Origin: Acidobacteriota bacterium
Lineage (GTDB): Bacteria > Acidobacteriota > Holophagae > Holophagales > Holophagaceae
Length of the DNA stretch: 64,000 nucleotides
Assembly (NCBI GenBank): GCA_016195985.1
Contig: JACPYP010000019.1
Span: 1 to 64,000, forward strand
Reading direction: 5' to 3'
Part shown: in pieces, positions 29,491 to 39,250 of the stretch
Numbering within the stretch: position 1 is the first letter of the stretch
Layout: every line of letters begins with the position of its first letter
The notes under the pieces: model-generated
Database searches by the model: none
Told to the model about the DNA's origin: nothing
Seen by the model: the letters and a program-made list of their open reading frames with translations, nothing else
Program-made: the position numbers and the translations under genes

Positions 29491-31352
29491 CACTGATCGT
29501 CCTCGTCGTCCTCGTCGGGCTTGGCAGGGACCACGGGCGGCGGGGCCGGAGCGTCAAGCCCCGCCGCCTGCTCCTTGGCGATGCGAAGGCGGAGATCGCC
29601 CAGGCGCTTTTCCAGGGCAGCGCGCTCCGGGAAGACGAAAGCCAGGGCCCGGTCCCACTGTTCCGCGGCTTCGACCAGCTTGCCCTGCTTCAAAAGCACT
29701 TCGCCGAGGTGCTTGCGCACTTCAGGGCTGAAGGGGTTCAGCTCCGCGGCGCGCCGCAGCGTGGTCTCCGCTTCGCTGACGCGGCCCAGCTTGAACTGGG
29801 CCCAGCCCAGGCTATCCACGACGTTGCCGTTGTCCGGCGTAGCCTTGGCGCTGGCCTCGATCAGCGCGGCGGCCTCCTCAAGGTTCTGCTCCTGCTCCAG
29901 CAGCAGGTAGCCGAGGTTGTTCTGAACCAGCGGATTGGCGGGCTCCAGGACCTGGGCCTCCCGCAGGGCCGCCAGGGATTCCGCGTGCCGGCCCAGCTGG
30001 TCGAGGGCCTGGCTTTCCATGATGAGCATGTCCACGTGCCGCACGGGCGACAGCTTGGCTGCCTGCTCCAAGGCCTCCAGGCACTTGTCCCAGCGCTGGA
30101 ATTCCTGCCAGAGGGCGGCCATGCCTTCGAGGTGCATCTGTTCCAGGGCGGCGCGGGTTTCCTTGCGCGAGAAGAAGGCATATTCCAGATACTTGGGAGG
30201 CAACTGGCTGGCCTGCTTGAAGAAGCCGATCTTGGGATAGCGGGCGATGCCCTCCTTCAGCACCTCCAGGCCGCTCTTCCAGTCGTTGAGGCTGATGAGG
30301 GCCTGGGCCTTGAAGACCAGGGCCTCACCATCCGTGTGGGGATTCGAGGGGCGGTCCTTGAGGAAGGCCAGCAGGGCCTTGCCCTTCCCCTGCAGCAGCA
30401 GCGCCTCCGCGTAGAGCATGGGCCCGCCGTCCACCACGCGCGGCGAATCGGCGGGCTGGGAAAGAATGCCCTTGAGGCGCTTTTCCGCCTCCTCGAAACG
30501 TCCCAGGTTCATGAGGGCCTGGGCCGTGTAGAAACCCAGGGCAGGAGTGGGTTTCAGGGCCTCGGCCTTGGCCAGGGTCTCCAGCGCCTCCGCATAGCGG
30601 GCGGTCTGCATCCGCACCAGAGACACGTTCTCCCAGAGCCCCGCTTCCTGGGGCAGATGGTGGGCCAGCAGAAGAAAGCTCTCCTCCGCATGGGCCAGGT
30701 ATCCCGCCTTGATCTGCTCCCGCGCCAGTTCCTCCAGCAGGCGCAGGTGCCGGTCCTCCGGATTGCGGGCATTGAGGGCCAGCAGCGCCTCGCGCTTGCC
30801 TTCGTAATTCTGCGTGGCCCGCGCGTGGATGAACGCGCGCTCCCAGGCCGGCGCGAAGCTGGGGCGCATGCGGCCGAGACGCAGCCAGGCCTTCAGGGCG
30901 CTCTCGCCATCCTTCATCTGTTCGGAGACCTCGCCCAGCCGCGCCCAGAGCTCTGGATCCTGCGGCAGCCGCAGGGCCGCGGCCTTGAGTTCCTTGGCCG
31001 CCTCGGGGGCCAGGGTGGCGTCGCTCTGGGCCCGCTGATACTGCAGCAGGGCCAGATGGGCCTGGGCCTCGGCGTTCTGAGGGGCCAGCTCCACGGCCCG
31101 GCGGGCCGGCGCCAGGGCCCCATTGGCATCCTGGGCCTCCTGAAGGGCCTCGGAGAGCCGCAGGTTCGCTTCGGCGCTGTCGGGCACCAGGGACAACACG
31201 CGCCGGTAGATGGCCGCCGCCGCCGCAGGATCGGCGCCTCCCCCCCGCAGTTGCAGGGCGCGGGCCTGGAGCATCAGGGCGCGGACATCCTCCCCGAAGG
31301 CCGGGGCCGCCGCGAGGAGAACCGCAAGAACGGGGATGCGAATGTCACGCAC
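29490..31352 (-). CDS. Exported tetratricopeptide-repeat protein
   Basis: A 620-residue protein: signal peptide (RIPVLAVLLAAAPAFG) then about a dozen TPR units (for example AAIYRRVLSLVPDSAEANLRL, AEALETLAKAEALKPTPALG, AETTLRRAAELNPFSPEVRK), ending in a Pro/acidic tail. It is a periplasmic interaction scaffold; partners are unknown. The start is GTG at 31352, six bases after an AGGAGG site; a second GTG at 31358 is too close to it. The gene begins inside the 3' end of aroB (8-base overlap) and its stop overlaps the next gene. Confidence 0.85.
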   Translation of the reverse strand: MRDIRIPVLAVLLAAAPAFGEDVRALMLQARALQLRGGGADPAAAAAIYRRVLSLVPDSAEANLRLSEALQEAQDANGALAPARRAVELAPQNAEAQAHLALLQYQRAQSDATLAPEAAKELKAAALRLPQDPELWARLGEVSEQMKDGESALKAWLRLGRMRPSFAPAWERAFIHARATQNYEGKREALLALNARNPEDRHLRLLEELAREQIKAGYLAHAEESFLLLAHHLPQEAGLWENVSLVRMQTARYAEALETLAKAEALKPTPALGFYTAQALMNLGRFEEAEKRLKGILSQPADSPRVVDGGPMLYAEALLLQGKGKALLAFLKDRPSNPHTDGEALVFKAQALISLNDWKSGLEVLKEGIARYPKIGFFKQASQLPPKYLEYAFFSRKETRAALEQMHLEGMAALWQEFQRWDKCLEALEQAAKLSPVRHVDMLIMESQALDQLGRHAESLAALREAQVLEPANPLVQNNLGYLLLEQEQNLEEAAALIEASAKATPDNGNVVDSLGWAQFKLGRVSEAETTLRRAAELNPFSPEVRKHLGEVLLKQGKLVEAAEQWDRALAFVFPERAALEKRLGDLRLRIAKEQAAGLDAPAPPPVVPAKPDEDDEDDQ

Positions 31353-32439
31353 GGACACCCTCCTGGTGGAGCAGAGACAGGAGCCGGGCATGGGAGGATT
31401 CCCAAGCCTGCGGAGGCAATACCCGCTGCACGGCGGACTCGCCCGGACGCGGAAGGATGCAGTGGATCTGGATGGCGGTCCCAGCCGGGCCAGCACCTTG
31501 GCCAACACCTTGGCCAGCACCTTGACCGGGGCCGCGCTCGGCCTTCTTGTCCCGGGCCAACAGGGGCAGACAGGCCTCCCAGGGGGCGGCCAGGTGGGCC
31601 AAGGGCGCCAAGCGGCGGGCCAGGGCCCCCAGCACTTCATCGGGGAAGGGCTTCAAGCCCTGCTCTTCCGCCAGGAAACAGGCCGCCGCCAGGCCCATCC
31701 CCACGGCCTCGCCGTGCAGCAGCTGATAGCCGGATGCGGCTTCCAGCGCATGGCCCAGGGTATGGCCCAGGTTCAGCAGGCGGCGTTCTCCTGATTCGCG
31801 GGGGTCACGGTGCACCACGCCGGCTTTGAAGGCCAGGGCCCGCTCCACCCAGGGCAGTTTGATGGGGCCTTCCCGCAGCATGTCCAAGGCCCAGTCCATC
31901 TCGCCCTGGATCAGGGCGGTCTTGATGAGCTCCCAGCGGCCGTTATCCAACTGGCGCCCGGGCAGACTCTCCAGCAGGTCCGTGCAGGCCACGAGACGGC
32001 GCGGCGCGTGGAAGGCGCCCACCAGGTTCTTGCCCGCTTCGAGATCCGCGCCGGTCTTGCCGCCCAAGGAGGCGTCGGCCATGGCCAGCAGCGTGGTGGG
32101 CCACACCTGCCAGGCCACGCCCCGCAGGAAGAGCGCCGCCGCCAGGCCTGTCAGGTCGCTGAGCACCCCGCCTCCGAGGGCCACCACGGTGGCGTCCCGG
32201 TGGAGGGGCACCCGGGCCCAGTGCTCCAACCAGGGAATCACGGTACCGAGGCGCTTCTCCTCCTCGGGCACGGACACCCACAGGGCATGCTCGGGCTCGG
32301 GCATGCCCGCCTGGGCCCAGGCGGCGCGAAGGCGCTGGTCTCCCACCAGGGTCCAGGGGCCCTCCGGCAGCAGGGCCGCATCGGGCCCTTCGAGCAGGAA
32401 GACCTCCGTGGCGAAACCGGCCGGAGTGGCAAGCCTCAT
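31345..32439 (-). CDS. aroB: 3-dehydroquinate synthase
   Basis: A 364-residue NAD- and zinc-dependent enzyme, second step of the shikimate pathway. Family blocks: VVALGGGVLSDLTGLAAALF (NAD binding), LGGKTGADLEAGKNLVGAFH, ELIKTALI, NLGHTLGHALEA and LLHGEAVGMGL (zinc His). Between LLARDKKAE and the final IQIHCILPRPG strand there is a Gly/Gln-rich insertion encoded by a 12-bp tandem repeat. The start ATG at 32439 overlaps the M28 peptidase stop (ATGA). A shikimate kinase is encoded at 37.3 kb in an unusual fusion. Confidence 0.93.
   Translation of the reverse strand: MRLATPAGFATEVFLLEGPDAALLPEGPWTLVGDQRLRAAWAQAGMPEPEHALWVSVPEEEKRLGTVIPWLEHWARVPLHRDATVVALGGGVLSDLTGLAAALFLRGVAWQVWPTTLLAMADASLGGKTGADLEAGKNLVGAFHAPRRLVACTDLLESLPGRQLDNGRWELIKTALIQGEMDWALDMLREGPIKLPWVERALAFKAGVVHRDPRESGERRLLNLGHTLGHALEAASGYQLLHGEAVGMGLAAACFLAEEQGLKPFPDEVLGALARRLAPLAHLAAPWEACLPLLARDKKAERGPGQGAGQGVGQGAGPAGTAIQIHCILPRPGESAVQRVLPPQAWESSHARLLSLLHQEGVRA
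31488..31523 (-). repeat. 12-bp tandem repeat inside aroB
   Basis: Three contiguous 12-bp units (31488-31499, 31500-31511, 31512-31523), the middle one differing at one base, plus a partial fourth. In aroB they encode GQGA/GQGV tetrapeptides. Being a multiple of three, copy changes keep the frame. Confidence 0.85.
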
Positions 32440-34187
32440 GAGCGGCCCTTCAGGGTGGCTTCGGCCTTCATCAGCCGGTCCCCGCGCAGCCACTGGACGA
32501 CCACCTTGTCGCCGGGCTTGTAGGCGCCCAGGGCGCCCATGAAGTCGTAGACATTCTTCAGCGTCTTGTCTCCGAACTGGATGAGGATGTCGCCGGGTTG
32601 CAGGCCGATGGCTTCCGCGGTGCCTCCCTGGGAGACGCCGTTGATGCGGAAGCCCTTGGGATTGTCCGCGTAGTCGGGGATGGTTCCGAACGCGATGCGC
32701 ATGGGGCCGCCGTCGCCGCGGGAAGGCAGCTTGGCGGTTTCCGGGTCGAAGGCCGGCAGGATGTCCGCGTTGGCCAGATCCAGCGTCACCGCCTTGCCGA
32801 AGGCCGCCAGCTTCACCATGCCCGGGTAGTTGATGCGGTCGGCCGTATCCGTGGGGCGGTGGTACTCGCCGTGGATGCCCGTGAAGAAGAAGAAGGTGGG
32901 AATCCTGGCCTGGGAGAAGCTCATGTGATCCGAGCCGCCCACGCTGGCGCCCACGTCGGCGCTGACGGAGAAATCCCTGGGCACGAACTTCTGGGCGGCT
33001 TCCACGGCGGATTTCGGGGCGCCCAGGCCGCCCATCATGAGTTTGGGGGCCTTCGCATCGAGGCGCCCCACCATGTCGAAGTTGAGCATGAACTTCACGG
33101 CTTCCAGCGGATGGGTGGGATGCTGCACCCAGTACTGGGAGCCCAGCAGCCCTTCCTCCTCGCCCGCGAAGTGGAGCAGCAGGATCGAGCGCCGGGGCTT
33201 CGCCTTCTTCAGTTCCCGCGCCAGTTCCACCACCAGGGCCGTGCCCGAGGCGTTGTCGTCGGCGCCGGGATGGATCTGGCCGCGGGCTTCGGCCCCGCCC
33301 ATGCTGTGCCGTTCGCCCAGGCCCAGGTGGTCCATGTGCGCGCCGAGCACGATGAATTCCTTGCGCAGCTTGGGATCCCGGCCCGGAATCACCGTCACCA
33401 CGTTGGGGATCTGCGCCTCGTCGCGGCGCAGCTTGAGATCCAGGGAGAAGGCCGCCGCTGCGGCTTCCGGCGCGGCGGGCTTGCCGGTTTCCTTGATGGC
33501 CTTGAAGCGGGCGGCCACGTCGCCGCAGGCGCCGCCCAGGCCCTCGATCGTCATGCCCACCACGGGCAGATCCACCTTTACGGGGCCCTCCTCCCGCTGC
33601 AGGGGCCGGAGGGCGTCCTCCAGCACGATGACGCCCGCGGCCTTGGCGGTCTCCAGCTTCTTCAGCCGGGCCAACAGGCCCCGTTCGCCGCGCGGAAGGT
33701 GGGCGAAGACGTCCAGATCGGGCACCGCCCGGGCGATGACCACCACGCGGTCCTTGAGATCGAGGCCTGCGAAATCGTCGTAGCCGCCGGGCACCTGCAC
33801 GCCGTAGCCCGCGAAGACCAGGGGCTTGGCCTTGAAATCAGCGTCGCCGCTCAACCCCAGGGCCTCGATGTCCTTTCCCCAGACCAGGGAACGGGTGCCG
33901 CCCTCCGCCGCCACCACCGCTTCCTGCCTTTCCCGGACGACCCGGGCGATGAAGGGGAAGCGCTGGATCTGAGTCTGGAGGCCCAGGGCTTTCAGCTCGC
34001 CCTGGACGCGCCTGGCGGCCTCATCCAGCTCGGGGTAGCCGTTGCCCCGGCCCTTCAGCTCCGGCGCCGCCAGAAAGGCCACGTCCCTGCGCAGGCGCTG
34101 CTCGGCGGCCAGATCCGCCTTGCTGGCTGGAGCCTGGGCGGAGGCCACGAGGGCGGCGGCGGAAAGGAAGGGCATCCAGGAACGCAT
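32436..34187 (-). CDS. M28-family aminopeptidase with C-terminal PDZ domain, exported
   Basis: A 583-residue exported zinc peptidase. Signal peptide 1-18; then a protease-associated insert and an M28 catalytic domain with zinc ligands in LGAHMDHLG, GADDNASGTALVVE, FAGEEEGLLGS and NFDMVGR, ending with GGSDHMSF. A PDZ domain (KGFRINGVSQGGTAEAIGLQPGDILIQFG) makes up the last 90 residues. It likely trims peptides in the periplasm or outside. The ATG at 34187 has a CTGGAG site. It is the first gene of the minus-strand run with aroB and the TPR gene, all joined by short overlaps. Confidence 0.9.
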   Translation of the reverse strand: MRSWMPFLSAAALVASAQAPASKADLAAEQRLRRDVAFLAAPELKGRGNGYPELDEAARRVQGELKALGLQTQIQRFPFIARVVRERQEAVVAAEGGTRSLVWGKDIEALGLSGDADFKAKPLVFAGYGVQVPGGYDDFAGLDLKDRVVVIARAVPDLDVFAHLPRGERGLLARLKKLETAKAAGVIVLEDALRPLQREEGPVKVDLPVVGMTIEGLGGACGDVAARFKAIKETGKPAAPEAAAAAFSLDLKLRRDEAQIPNVVTVIPGRDPKLRKEFIVLGAHMDHLGLGERHSMGGAEARGQIHPGADDNASGTALVVELARELKKAKPRRSILLLHFAGEEEGLLGSQYWVQHPTHPLEAVKFMLNFDMVGRLDAKAPKLMMGGLGAPKSAVEAAQKFVPRDFSVSADVGASVGGSDHMSFSQARIPTFFFFTGIHGEYHRPTDTADRINYPGMVKLAAFGKAVTLDLANADILPAFDPETAKLPSRGDGGPMRIAFGTIPDYADNPKGFRINGVSQGGTAEAIGLQPGDILIQFGDKTLKNVYDFMGALGAYKPGDKVVVQWLRGDRLMKAEATLKGRS

Positions 34188-34265
34188 CTTGTCTCCAGGG
34201 AGGCTCCAGTTTACATGAGGCCAGCGGACATCTCCGGACGGGCCCGCATGTGGGACAATGACCGC

Positions 34266-36062
34266 ATGTCCGAACAGGGAGCCTTCTTCCAATCCGACCG
34301 CGCCGGCGAAAGGCCCATGCGCCATGCCCTGCTCTGGCGGCTCGCGGGCTACCTGCGCCCCCAGTGGAGGGCGCTGCTGCTGCTGTTCGCCCTGATGGGC
34401 CTGGGCGCCTTCCTGGAGGTGCTGCCTTCGGAAATGACGCTGCGGCTCATCAACCGCTTCATGGGCCAGGGCACTTTGAAGGGATCGGCCCCTCTGGTGG
34501 CGGGCTTCTTTGGGGTGCTCATCGCCGGATTCGTGGTGAGTTTCGCGCGCTATTTCATGCTGGCCAAGGTGGGCCAGAAGGCCATGCTCGACCTGCGCGT
34601 GCAGCTCTTCCAGCACCTCATGGGCCGCAGCACGGACTTCTTCCACCGCAATCCCGTGGGGCGCCTCATGACCCGCGTCACCAGCGATGTGCAGAATCTT
34701 AACGAAATGTTCGCATCGGGCTTCGTGGCCATCGTGGGCGACGCCCTGTCCCTGCTGGCCATCGTGGCATGGATGTTCTGGACCCATCCGGGCATGGCGA
34801 CGGTGGCCCTGGTGATCCTGCCCTTCCTGCTGGTGGCCACGGAATTCTTCCGCCGCCGCGCCGGAGAGGCTTTCCGGGAGACCCAGAGGCGCTACGCCTC
34901 CATCAACGCCTTCCTTCAGGAACAGATTTCCGGCATGGGGCTGGTGCAGATCAACAGCCAGGAGAAGCACAGCGACGCCCGGTTCCAGACGCTCAACGAG
35001 GACTACTTCCAGGCCTTCCTGCGCACCATCTTCGCCTACGCCGTGTTCTTCCCCGTGGTGGAGTTCATCACCTCCAGCACCCTGGCGGCCCTCATCTTCT
35101 ACGCGGGCATCAAGCTCAAGGCCGGCGCCATCACCTGGGGCCTGCTGCTGGCCTTCATCCAGCAATCCAGCCGCTTCTTCCGGCCGATCCGCGAACTGGC
35201 CGAGCGCTACAACGTCATGCAGACGGCCCTGGCCTCCAGCGAGCGCATCTTCCGCCTGCTGGACAACCAGGAGCAGATCCCCGAGGCGCCAGACGCCAAG
35301 GAGGCCGCCCTGGCCCGCGAGATCCGCTTCGAGGATGTCTCCTTCGCCTACGAGGCCTACGAAGAGGGCGGCCGCCAGGTGGTGCGCGGACTCAGCGGCG
35401 TGATCCCCAAGGGGCACCGCGTGGCCGTGGTGGGGCACACCGGCGCGGGCAAGAGCACCCTGATCAACCTGCTCATGCGCTTCTACGACGTGAGCGAAGG
35501 CCGCATCACCATCGACGGCGCCGATGTCCGGAGCCTGAAGCTCCGCAGCCTGCGCAGCCTCTTCGGCCTGGTGCTGCAGGACGTCTTCGTGTTTTCCGGA
35601 ACGCTGCGCGACAACATCGTGCTGGACCGCCCCCTGGAGGAGGCCCGGCTGGCCTCGGTCCTGGAGCAAAGCCAGCTGAAGGACCTGGTGGGCCGCCTGC
35701 CGGAAGGCCTGGACACCCAGGTGGGCGAACGGGGCCAGAAGCTCAGCGCCGGCGAGAAGCAGCTGCTGGCCTTCGCCCGCATGCTCTACCTGGAACCGGC
35801 CGTGCTGCTGCTGGACGAAGCCACCGCGAACATCGATTCCGAAACCGAATCGAAAATCCAGACCGTCATCGAGCGCGTGAGCCACCGCCTCACCACCTTC
35901 ACCATCGCCCACCGGCTTTCCACCATCCGCGAAGCGGATGAAATCTGGGTCATGGACCAGGGCCAGCTGGTGGAACGCGGCACCCACGACGGCCTCATCG
36001 CCCAGGACGGCGTCTACGCCAAGCTGGTCCGGCTGCAGTTCGCCGACAGCGAAGCGGCCTGA
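34266..36062 (+). CDS. MsbA-like ABC exporter (fused permease-ATPase)
   Basis: A 598-residue half-transporter that should act as a homodimer in the inner membrane. Six transmembrane helices (about residues 25-320) carry the type-IV ABC exporter coupling region; the ATPase has Walker A VVGHTGAGKSTLINLLMRF, Q-loop VLQDVFVFSGTLRDNI, signature LSAGEKQLLAFARM and Walker B VLLLDEATANIDSETE, with H-loop AHRLSTI. It fits lipid or drug export; MsbA-type lipid A flipping is plausible beside LPS genes in the window but unproven. An in-frame ATG at 34248 is an alternative start. Confidence 0.88.
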   Translation: MSEQGAFFQSDRAGERPMRHALLWRLAGYLRPQWRALLLLFALMGLGAFLEVLPSEMTLRLINRFMGQGTLKGSAPLVAGFFGVLIAGFVVSFARYFMLAKVGQKAMLDLRVQLFQHLMGRSTDFFHRNPVGRLMTRVTSDVQNLNEMFASGFVAIVGDALSLLAIVAWMFWTHPGMATVALVILPFLLVATEFFRRRAGEAFRETQRRYASINAFLQEQISGMGLVQINSQEKHSDARFQTLNEDYFQAFLRTIFAYAVFFPVVEFITSSTLAALIFYAGIKLKAGAITWGLLLAFIQQSSRFFRPIRELAERYNVMQTALASSERIFRLLDNQEQIPEAPDAKEAALAREIRFEDVSFAYEAYEEGGRQVVRGLSGVIPKGHRVAVVGHTGAGKSTLINLLMRFYDVSEGRITIDGADVRSLKLRSLRSLFGLVLQDVFVFSGTLRDNIVLDRPLEEARLASVLEQSQLKDLVGRLPEGLDTQVGERGQKLSAGEKQLLAFARMLYLEPAVLLLDEATANIDSETESKIQTVIERVSHRLTTFTIAHRLSTIREADEIWVMDQGQLVERGTHDGLIAQDGVYAKLVRLQFADSEAA

Positions 36063-36082
36063 ATGGCCCTTGGATTCAGGCC
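36056..36082. terminator. Bidirectional hairpin spanning two convergent stop codons
   Basis: A perfect 9-bp inverted repeat (36056-36064 with 36074-36082) with a 9-base loop. It contains the stop of the plus-strand ABC gene (36060-36062) and of the minus-strand VOC gene (36076-36078). There is no T-tract, so it may act as a weak terminator or 3'-end stabiliser. Confidence 0.55.
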
Positions 36083-36462
36083 TGCCCGGCCCCGGTGTTG
36101 GAAAGGCTCAGCACGTTCCCGTCGGGATCCTTGAACCAGGCGACCTCTGCGCCGCCTGGCGCCCTCCACACGCCTAGGTCGCTATCCTCCACGAAGGGGT
36201 ATTTCTCCGTTTCGACGCCGCGTTCCCGCAGCCACCGCGCCGCGTTCGGTACATCGGGAACCTCCCAACCCAGGACGGTGCCTTGAACCGGCTGGAAATC
36301 CGGAACCCGGGAGATGCGGACCCTGGTGCCTCCGGCACGGATGACCAGCGCGAAAGCATCTTGGGACTCCACTCGGAAACCCAGGATGCCTTCGTAGAAG
36401 GCCCGGGCACGGGCGTAGTCCGTAGTGAATAGAAAGCCGACGATGGGGGCACGGTCCAGCAT
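36076..36462 (-). CDS. VOC-superfamily (glyoxalase/bleomycin resistance-like) protein
   Basis: A 128-residue single vicinal-oxygen-chelate protein: IVGFLFTTDYARARAFYEGILGFRV opens the first beta-alpha-beta-beta-beta unit and EVAWFKDPDGNVLSLS closes the second. A metal-binding Glu/His set cannot be firmly assigned; the N-terminal His of glyoxalase I is absent. It may be an isomerase, dioxygenase or binding protein. The ATG at 36462 has a GGAGG site. It is divergent from the AraC-type regulator. Confidence 0.82.
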   Translation of the reverse strand: MLDRAPIVGFLFTTDYARARAFYEGILGFRVESQDAFALVIRAGGTRVRISRVPDFQPVQGTVLGWEVPDVPNAARWLRERGVETEKYPFVEDSDLGVWRAPGGAEVAWFKDPDGNVLSLSNTGAGQA

Positions 36463-36530
36463 GGTTCCTCCGATGGGACCCCAGCATGGTCCAGTTCGGG
36501 TTGAACGCGCTTCCGCTAGAATGCCAATCA

Positions 36531-37334
36531 ATGTCTGAAAAGTGCCATAGTCTCCTCCGGTCGCCTCAGGGCCGCCTAACCGCCCATGTGGCCACCGTCT
36601 CCTGCGAATTCGCCCCGGGACTGACGCTTCCCGAGCATGAGCATCCAGAGGACCAGCTGGTCTTCGCCTCCCGTGGGGTGATGACGGTGCGGACCCGCGC
36701 CGGACTCTGGGTGGTGCCCCCGTCCCGGGCAGTCTGGATTCCGGCGGGCATCCCCCATGCCGTGGAAATGTCGGGCGCCGTGTCCATGCGCTCGCTCTAT
36801 TTCGCGCCTGGCTTGATGCGCGGCTTCCCCAACAGCTGTTCGGTGGTAACCGTAGGGCCATTGCTGCGGGAGCTGATCGTGCATGTCTGCGCCATCGGCC
36901 GGCTGAACAGGCGCCGCCCGGTTCAGGCCCGTCTCTTGGCCGTCCTGCTGGACCAACTTGGTCTGACGCCGACCCTCCCCCTCCAGCTGCCCCACCCCAT
37001 CGATCCTCGCGCCCAGCGGATCGCGCAGCTCCTCCTGGACAACCCTTCCGACTCCCGCACACTCGATCAACTCTGCGCCACCTCTGGCGCGAGCCGGCGC
37101 ACGATCCAGCGTCTTTTCCTTGCTGAAACCCGCATGGCCTTCCAACGATGGCGGCAGCAGCTTCGGCTCCTGCACGCCCTACAGCAGCTCGCCGCAGGTG
37201 AGAAGGTCACTGCGACGGCGCTAGAAGCGGGCTACAGCAGCCCAAGCGCCTTCGTCTCCATGTTCCGAAGGCAGCTAGGAACCACCCCAGCCCGCTACCT
37301 CGCCTCCGGCGGCAGCGGTGCCCTCCAAGGGTAG
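36531..37334 (+). CDS. AraC-family transcriptional regulator
   Basis: A 267-residue DNA-binding regulator. The N-terminal cupin-like effector domain has EHEHPEDQLVFASRGVMTV and WVVPPSRAVWIPAGIPHAV. The C-terminal AraC domain has two helix-turn-helix units: LDQLCATSGASRRTIQRLFL and TATALEAGYSSPSAFVSMFRRQLGTTPARY. It resembles the NimR/YdeO-like cupin regulators that control neighbouring efflux genes. Start choice between the ATGs at 36486 and 36531 is uncertain; neither has a strong ribosome site. The divergent VOC gene is a candidate target. Confidence 0.85.
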   Translation: MSEKCHSLLRSPQGRLTAHVATVSCEFAPGLTLPEHEHPEDQLVFASRGVMTVRTRAGLWVVPPSRAVWIPAGIPHAVEMSGAVSMRSLYFAPGLMRGFPNSCSVVTVGPLLRELIVHVCAIGRLNRRRPVQARLLAVLLDQLGLTPTLPLQLPHPIDPRAQRIAQLLLDNPSDSRTLDQLCATSGASRRTIQRLFLAETRMAFQRWRQQLRLLHALQQLAAGEKVTATALEAGYSSPSAFVSMFRRQLGTTPARYLASGGSGALQG

Positions 37335-37342
37335 ACTGGGCC

Positions 37343-38488
37343 ATGCTGCATCTGCCGCCCCTCTACCCCATCACCGACGCCACGCTTGCGGAGCCGCTCT
37401 CCGCCCAGATCCGCCGCCTGGGCGAAGCGGGCTATCCGCTGGTGCAGTTCCGGGGCAAGCCCCTGGATGCCCAGGCCCAGTGGGCGGAACTGCGGAAGGC
37501 CCTGGCCGAAGCGGCCGCCAACGGCGGCTGGCCCTTCATCTGCGTCAACGACCGGGCCGACTTGGCCCTTCTGGCGGCCCGGGAAGGCCTGGCCCCCTGG
37601 GGCCTGCACCTGGGGCAGGAGGATCTTCCCGCGGCCGAAGCGCGCCGCCTTCCGGGTCTGGAGAAGGCCCACCTGGGAACGTCCACCCACCAGGCCGGCG
37701 AATGGAACCTCGTGGACCCGGCCTGCGACCATGCGGGCGTGGGCCCCTTCCGCGGCACCGCCACCAAGACCGATCACGCGACCCCCATCGGCCTGGAGGG
37801 GCTGCGTTCTGGCTGCGCGGCCCTGCGCCGCCAAGGCCGGGCGCCCATCGCCATCGGAGGACTGGCCCTCGCCGATGCCTCCGCCTGTTTCGAGGCCGGA
37901 GCGGAGTCCCTGGCCATGGTGGGCGAGGTGCACCGCAGCGCCGACCCCGCCTCCCTGGGATGGGAGCTTCAGCGCCTGCGCTGGCGCGCCCGGCCGCCCT
38001 TCGAGCGCGGGCAAGGGCTGGCCCTCATTGGGGGCAGCGGCGCCGGCAAGACCACCTTCGGGCGACAGTTGGCCTGGGCCCTCGGCCTGCCCTTCCACGA
38101 CCTGGACGCGGCCATCGAGGAGCAGGAGGGCCGCCCGGTGGCAGAGATCTTTGCGACCTCCGGAGAGGCGGCCTTCCGCAACCTGGAGACGGAACGGCTG
38201 CCCGCCTTGATGGCCAGACCCGGCGTGGTGGCCCTGGGCGGCGGCGCCTGGGAGGCGCCCGCCAACCGGGCGGCGGTGGCCGGGGCCGGCTTCGCCCCGC
38301 TCTGGCTGGCGGTTCCACCACAGCAGGCCTGGGAACGGGCCAGCCGCGACCCCAACAGGCCCCTGGCCCGGGACCGGGCGGCCTTCATGGCCCGCTGGGC
38401 CGCCCGCATGCCCGCCTGGTCCCTGGCCCCCATGGTCCTTAGTTTTGGTCACAGTTCCCGGGACCTGGTGTCCGCCTTGCTAGACTAG
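37343..38488 (+). CDS. Fusion of thiamine-phosphate synthase and shikimate kinase
   Basis: A 381-residue protein joining two enzymes. Residues 1-205 are ThiE-like: YPITD, VQFRGKPLDAQ, FICVNDRADLA, GLHLGQEDLP, HLGTSTHQ, GVGPFRGTATK and IAIGGLAL follow the thiamine-phosphate synthase order, with the metal/pyrophosphate residues apparently kept. Residues 222-381 are shikimate kinase: Walker A GGSGAGKTT at 230-238, DLDAAIEEQEGRPVAEIF (Asp253, Asp255), AFRNLE (Arg279), VALGGGAW and RDPNRPLARD. The expected reactions, coupling of thiazole and pyrimidine to thiamine phosphate and phosphorylation of shikimate, share no pathway. The open frame is continuous with no internal start needed. Confidence 0.87.
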   Translation: MLHLPPLYPITDATLAEPLSAQIRRLGEAGYPLVQFRGKPLDAQAQWAELRKALAEAAANGGWPFICVNDRADLALLAAREGLAPWGLHLGQEDLPAAEARRLPGLEKAHLGTSTHQAGEWNLVDPACDHAGVGPFRGTATKTDHATPIGLEGLRSGCAALRRQGRAPIAIGGLALADASACFEAGAESLAMVGEVHRSADPASLGWELQRLRWRARPPFERGQGLALIGGSGAGKTTFGRQLAWALGLPFHDLDAAIEEQEGRPVAEIFATSGEAAFRNLETERLPALMARPGVVALGGGAWEAPANRAAVAGAGFAPLWLAVPPQQAWERASRDPNRPLARDRAAFMARWAARMPAWSLAPMVLSFGHSSRDLVSALLD

Positions 38489-38509: not shown

Positions 38510-39250
38510 TTGGACCTGATCCTCTCCGATCTGCATTCAAACCTGCACGCCCTCCGGGCCGTGCTGCGCTTCGCGCGGCGCCGGGCCATCCACCGCTTCG
38601 TGTTCCTGGGCGACCTGGTGGGATACGGCGCCAACCCTAATCAATTGTTGGATAAGCTAAGAGAGCTGCGCCCCCGCTTCATGGTCCGGGGCAACCACGA
38701 CAAGGTCTGTGCCGGGCTCGAGCCCGATGCTTCCTTCAGCCTGCCGGCCCGTCAGGCGGCGGACTGGACGCGGGAGCGCCTGCGCCAGGACAACTGGCGC
38801 TTCCTGGCGGAACTGCCCGCGGGCCCTGCCTGGGTGGGCGAGGATTACATGATCGCCCACGGTTCCCCCATGGACGAGGACGCCTACCTGCTCCACATGC
38901 GGGAAATCAGCCAGGCCTTCGACGCCTTCCAGGGCCAGCTCTGTTTCTTCGGCCATACCCATCTGCCCGGCTGCTTCGAGCTGGATGAGGGCCGGGGCCA
39001 GCTGAACTGGATCTGCCTGACGCCGGGAGAATGGTTCCAACTGCAGCCCCACTGCCGCTACCTCGTCAATCCTGGCTCCGTGGGCCAGCCCCGGGACCGG
39101 GACCCACAGCTGTCCTTCATGACCTTCGACCCCAAGGGGAGGCGGCTGCGGCTGCACCGCCTCGACTACGACGTGAAAGGTGCCGCCAAGGCCATTCTGG
39201 CCGCTGGATTGCACCGCAACTTGGCCGACCGCCTCAGCCAAGGCATCTGA
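38510..39250 (+). CDS. Metallophosphoesterase
   Basis: A 246-residue calcineurin-like phosphoesterase. The motif set is complete: LILSDLHSNLHAL (DxH), VFLGDLVGYG (GDxxxxG), MVRGNHDK (GNHD), IAHGSP and FFGHTHLP (GHTH), which bind two metals. It resembles the bacterial YfcE/DUF-type phosphodiesterases that cleave small phosphodiesters; substrate unknown. The start is a TTG at 38510 since no ATG or GTG precedes the first motif. It follows the ThiE-AroK gene by 21 bases and probably shares its transcript. Confidence 0.88.
   Translation: MDLILSDLHSNLHALRAVLRFARRRAIHRFVFLGDLVGYGANPNQLLDKLRELRPRFMVRGNHDKVCAGLEPDASFSLPARQAADWTRERLRQDNWRFLAELPAGPAWVGEDYMIAHGSPMDEDAYLLHMREISQAFDAFQGQLCFFGHTHLPGCFELDEGRGQLNWICLTPGEWFQLQPHCRYLVNPGSVGQPRDRDPQLSFMTFDPKGRRLRLHRLDYDVKGAAKAILAAGLHRNLADRLSQGI

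Follow-up and report, generated by a model that had tools for sequence, protein, structure and literature searches.

Gene fusions are commonly taken as a sign of a shared pathway or complex. Thiamine phosphate synthase (ThiE; PF02581; B. subtilis ThiE, PDB 2TPS/1G4T) is known as a module of several multidomain proteins: in THI6 (PDB 3NL6) it is combined with a thiazole kinase, so that steps of one pathway are joined; in the ThiE-ThiD proteins (NF007070) the partners likewise belong to the same pathway, and in the Nudix-ThiE proteins (NF006530) the partner is a hydrolase. Shikimate kinase (SK; AroK/AroL, PF01202; M. tuberculosis SK, PDB 2IYQ) is a module of the AroK-AroB proteins (NF010556, NF010627) and of the pentafunctional AROM (PDB 6HQV), where its partners are shikimate enzymes, and an SK-like domain is coupled to a DNA-binding domain in a benzoate regulator (NF006015). 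The main text of PMC11237513 describes an AroE-AroK fusion in archaea, whose partner is again a shikimate enzyme. None of the known SK fusions compared has a vitamin enzyme as its partner, unlike the protein analyzed here, in which ThiE is joined to a shikimate-pathway kinase. Literature searches recovered no description of a ThiE-SK fusion, both enzymes themselves being of known kinds, and a term search of the main texts of PMC4921024 and PMC11237513 returned none.

This fusion is encoded in a 64,000-nucleotide stretch of DNA (the window) from a Geothrix genome; Geothrix belongs to the Holophagaceae, a family of bacteria from soil and sediment. Its ORF begins with the ATG at 37343, ends with the stop codon at 38488 and has no internal stops; the frame is open 5' of the ATG, yet the relatives align from 37343. 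The 381-residue product contains a full-length TMP-TENI domain (PF02581, residues 7-195; 102 bits against a cut-off of 27) and an SKI domain (PF01202, residues 233-347; 108 bits against a cut-off of 22), with no third Pfam domain beyond these. The first half has its best solved relative in B. subtilis ThiE, the second in M. tuberculosis shikimate kinase. The ORF is a genuine and intact ThiE-SK fusion, as a sequence-only reading of the window had claimed; its coordinates, single frame and lack of internal stops are borne out by the ORF check and Pfam. The features concerned are:

about 31345..32457, minus strand: aroB, 3-dehydroquinate synthase (Pfam; conserved nearby)
34221..36062, plus strand: ABC transporter gene (matches the ABC transporter of L042, itself typed by Pfam; conserved upstream in Holophagaceae)
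37343..38488, plus strand: ThiE-SK fusion gene, 381 aa (Pfam; recurrence in relatives)
37343..37957, plus strand: ThiE (TMP-TENI) half, residues 1-205 (Pfam; motifs QFRGK, VNDR, HLGQED, STH and TATK; fold match to B. subtilis ThiE)
37946..37990, plus strand: helix leading from the ThiE half to the SK half, residues 202-216 (AlphaFold2 model)
38006..38485, plus strand: SK half, residues 222-381 (Pfam; residues; fold match to M. tuberculosis SK)
38030..38053, plus strand: SK Walker A motif GGSGAGKT, residues 230-237 (sequence; column conservation)
38510..39250, plus strand: metallophosphoesterase gene (Pfam Metallophos_2; conserved next to both the fusion and separate SK genes)

The N-terminal half shares with ThiE its fold and the QxRxK, ND, HLGQ-D, SxH and TxTK motifs, and all the ThiE residues for substrate, Mg and pyrophosphate (QxRxK, ND, HLGQ-D, S, TxTK) are present. 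It differs from ThiE in its fusion to SK, in scoring 96 bits with the equivalog model TIGR00693 against a cut-off of 145, and in bearing Gly at two usual positions, Glu of the B. subtilis enzyme being replaced after QFR and Ser near the barrel end. These ThiE residues are intact in 49 of the 51 distinct Holophagaceae fusions, the exceptions being those of genomes G051 and G072; in the fusions of genus g2, Pro and Ser replace Thr at positions 139 and 141 of the residue alignment. Judged by its residues and genomic context, this half is a divergent TMP-TENI domain that probably works like ThiE. An identity as TenI (thiazole tautomerase) was considered and is ruled out by the presence of the ThiE motifs.

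Besides the fusion, the same genome has one other TMP-TENI match, a weak one of 184 aa and 44 bits (C30, near 269563; L041:7276-7827, plus strand). The latter protein is without the ThiE ND, HLGQ and TxTK motifs and is perhaps TenI-like; weak matches of its kind are present in most Holophagaceae genomes.

The C-terminal half shares with AroK/AroL the fold, the Walker A motif, DxD, FR, GGGA, RPL and the last shikimate-binding Arg, the residues present being K236 of Walker A, D253, D255, R279, G299, G301, R339 and R355, which together represent Walker A, the Asp pair, the Arg residues that bind shikimate, GGG and the LID Arg. Apart from D253, which is replaced by Glu once, all of these residues are invariant where covered among the 51 distinct fusions, and no decayed SK half was seen among the fusions examined. 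The best equivalog match is NF010552 (101 bits against 186), these cut-offs having been made for whole proteins and narrow groups. Besides its N-terminal ThiE domain, the protein departs from AroK/AroL in that the Tyr of R-x-P-x-Y is Trp in nearly the whole family. The sequence-only reading had noticed this substitution (W359), which is real, and took it as a reason to test the kinase as well. Position 359 is Trp in 47 of the 50 distinct family sequences covering the site and Leu in three g2 sequences; judged by this conservation it is a lineage signature of Holophagaceae and by itself gives no ground for doubting the kinase.

The AlphaFold2 model of A1 has a mean pLDDT of 93.3 and a pTM of 0.91, and in it the helix of residues 202-216 runs into the first SK strand at 226. 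Both halves are modelled with high confidence as a single body. Foldseek matches them to solved ThiE (TMt about 0.76) and SK (TMt 0.86) structures; among the 50 matches listed there is no solved ThiE-SK fusion, and only THI6 spans both parts of the model, at high rmsd.

A search with profile A1, built from 11 fusions, recovered a full-length single-frame fusion from 67 of 77 Holophagaceae genomes, covering all 11 of the 11 genera. In the remaining ten the gene was incomplete or not found; of the five inspected, four have matches that reach or come near the end of the stretch examined, and in G016 that stretch contains N. The same profile found no fusion in 16 genomes from two other families of the class. 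The named relatives, 66-81% identical, come from Geothrix (including G. fermentans DSM 14018, G. paludis, G. fuzhouensis and G. limicola) and uncultured Holophagaceae, and across the 11 genera the fusions have diverged to about 40% protein identity without acquiring stops. Genus g2, with small genomes of 0.9-1.2 Mb, retains the fusion together with ThiC and ThiG. SK is nearly always present in one copy per Holophagaceae genome, and in the window's own genome the fusion is the single SK match, no second SK having been found.

The genomic complement of thiamine genes, with presence and absence calls drawn mostly from draft genomes, bears on the role of the first half. Canonical ThiE (about 200 bits) occurs in only ten genomes of the family, all from genera g3, g7 and g9, and none was found as a separate gene in the window's own genome. 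ThiN, a substitute TMP synthase, was found in none of the 77 genomes, this one included, and is rejected as a stand-in. Given these distributions, the fused domain would be the only recognizable TMP synthase in Geothrix and several further genera. ThiC is present in 72 and ThiG in 64 of the 77 genomes, and the window's own genome encodes both, along with a ThiD/PdxK-family kinase. Since the latter genome has these three and no other SK, canonical ThiE or ThiN, both halves are probably the working enzymes of the cell. The sequence-only reading had proposed that separate thiE and aroK genes beside a fused form stripped of catalytic residues would tell against its interpretation; neither gene was found in this genome and both halves keep their catalytic residues, so that this objection falls away there.

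We propose, with a probability of about 0.8, that the fusion is a bifunctional enzyme whose single chain carries two active sites that work independently. Its residues 1-205 would form a divergent ThiE barrel that makes thiamine phosphate from HMP-PP and thiazole phosphate; the helix of residues 202-216 would link this barrel to a complete SK (about 222-381), which is predicted to convert shikimate and ATP to shikimate-3-phosphate. As the thiamine and shikimate pathways share no intermediate, channelling between the halves is not expected. The fused ThiE would stand in for the canonical enzyme that Geothrix and several other genera lack.

The exceptions to the conservation of the first half are informative. 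In G051 and G072 the ThiE half has lost its catalytic residues while staying in frame with an intact SK half; G051, a one-contig genome, has two further ThiE genes, one of them immediately upstream of ThiG, and G072 (89% complete) has neither a ThiC nor a ThiG match. A third case outside the family, G540 (family f34, another class), likewise joins a decayed in-frame ThiE half to an intact SK half, and ThiC was not found there. Decay of the ThiE half is tied in these three genomes to pathway loss or redundancy. This is not a rule: eight genomes (G050, G060, G062, G063, G065, G066, G069 and G070) encode canonical ThiE and yet preserve the fused ThiE half intact, so a redundant copy does not always lead to its loss. 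The loss of one activity, which the sequence-only reading had entertained, is thus seen elsewhere and in the ThiE half only, and not in the window's own genome. By the Nei-Gojobori method, the ThiE half of Geothrix pairs has a dN/dS of 0.10-0.21 and their SK half one of 0.17-0.39, so that purifying selection in this genus is at least as strong on the former as on the latter; for G050 versus G051 the values are 0.51 and 0.33, and several wider pairs, whose synonymous sites are saturated, are uninformative.

Against this background, three other explanations can be weighed. That a sequencing or assembly error merged two adjacent genes might be entertained because relatives do have separate adjacent thiE and aroK, but neither such error nor chance accounts for a full-length single frame shared by 67 genomes from 11 genera, among them those of isolates such as Geothrix fermentans DSM 14018, at protein identities down to about 40%; the search for the fused architecture thus disposes of the error that the sequence-only reading had named as its refutation, and we consider an artefact ruled out. 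It is improbable, though less so, that SK alone is catalytic and the ThiE fold merely acts as a scaffold for folding or dimerization. The persistence of the ThiE half in frame without catalytic residues in G051, G072 and G540 suggests that the fold itself may aid the kinase, and the modelling of both halves as one body is compatible with this. Such a role, however, sits poorly with the catalytic residues kept in nearly all 51 distinct fusions, with the selection on the Geothrix ThiE half and with its position as sole recognizable TMP synthase alongside ThiC and ThiG, and is at odds with family f34, most of whose genomes read carry SK without a ThiE half.

Less probable still is a sensor role for the ThiE-like half, which would bind thiamine phosphate or precursors of it and control the kinase, tying aromatic synthesis to thiamine status. 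The retention of two unrelated pathways in one chain across the family, the low ThiE equivalog score and the eight genomes in which an intact fused half coexists with canonical ThiE could all be read in this way. Sensing need not require the whole catalytic set, however, which is nevertheless kept, and the half has decayed just where an enzyme would, in the absence of ThiC and ThiG (G072) or in the presence of other ThiE genes (G051); moreover, G053 and G003 have ThiC and ThiG but would then lack a recognizable TMP synthase. We retain the bifunctional enzyme as the preferred reading.

The surroundings of the gene suggest how the fusion arose. The order in the window (a TPR protein and aroB on the minus strand, a peptidase-like gene named by eye only, the ABC transporter on the plus strand, the fusion, the metallophosphoesterase, a PilZ protein and a POT/MFS-family transporter) is conserved in Geothrix and largely so in other genera. 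A glyoxalase-like gene (minus strand) and an AraC-type regulator (plus strand) separate the ABC transporter from the fusion in the window (36076-37334) and have no match in the other loci compared. The sequence-only reading was right in placing aroB near 31.3 kb (Pfam confirms it), but not in its suggestion that the aro set has been rearranged here: across the Holophagaceae loci compared, aroB usually lies on the opposite strand a few kb from the fusion. The AroB protein itself (about 31345-32493, minus strand) contains a repetitive Gly-Gln-rich stretch, GPGQGAGQGVGQGAGPAG, ahead of its C-terminal part.

Among 396 Acidobacteriota genomes searched, the fusion was also found in families f54, f67 and f78. 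The last two belong to one class, in which a cluster of separate genes in the order thiE, SK, metallophosphoesterase is frequent; many of its genomes have thiE followed by aroK on the same strand, either adjacent or with one gene between them, which by eye resembles a sodium:neurotransmitter symporter (six loci). The metallophosphoesterase gene comes after SK in most loci fetched, and in Holophagaceae, f54, f67 and f78 it comes after the fusion; outside Holophagaceae its products are about 41-50% identical to the Geothrix protein. It thus adjoins the fusion and also SK in distant Acidobacteriota with separate thiE and SK genes; its substrate might bear on the persistence of the cluster. The neighbourhood of thiE and SK is not always an operon, since in L138 (G172), from another family, the two are adjacent on opposite strands. 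In most of the f34 genomes read, SK and the phosphoesterase are present but SK carries no ThiE half, which indicates that this SK lineage can dispense with it; none of the four f34 genomes tested gave a ThiC match. Separately, in L169 and L172 (family f3, of the same class as Holophagaceae) SK appears by eye to be in frame with shikimate dehydrogenase, a within-pathway AroE-AroK fusion.

The joining of neighbouring thiE and aroK genes upstream of the metallophosphoesterase gene is the simplest account and best explains the origin of the fusion as far as gene order and sequence comparison indicate. With trees from quick searches and of modest support, AU tests on the SK half reject a single clade of all fusions (p 0.016) and do not reject one that unites Holophagaceae, f67 and f78 (p 0.117); on the ThiE half a single clade of all fusions is not rejected (p 0.371); more than one origin in the phylum appears favoured but not settled. 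In the tree, canonical ThiE from Holophagaceae clusters with its counterpart from family f3 (SH-aLRT 90), so the fused ThiE looks, with modest support, like a second lineage rather than the class's own ThiE. We regard as improbable the more far-reaching combination in which the fusion couples the thiamine and shikimate pathways family-wide, replaced canonical ThiE in several genera, lets thiamine status modulate the kinase by way of the packed two-domain structure and had more than one origin in the phylum.

A fusion fixed throughout Holophagaceae thus joins enzymes of unrelated pathways, and its relatives display a likely earlier stage, with separate adjacent genes, and later stages, with the ThiE half decayed or absent. 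This makes it a clean test case for a fusion that reflects gene neighbourhood more than shared chemistry. For annotation, it implies that Geothrix seems to be without separate thiE and aroK, yet one protein probably has both functions.
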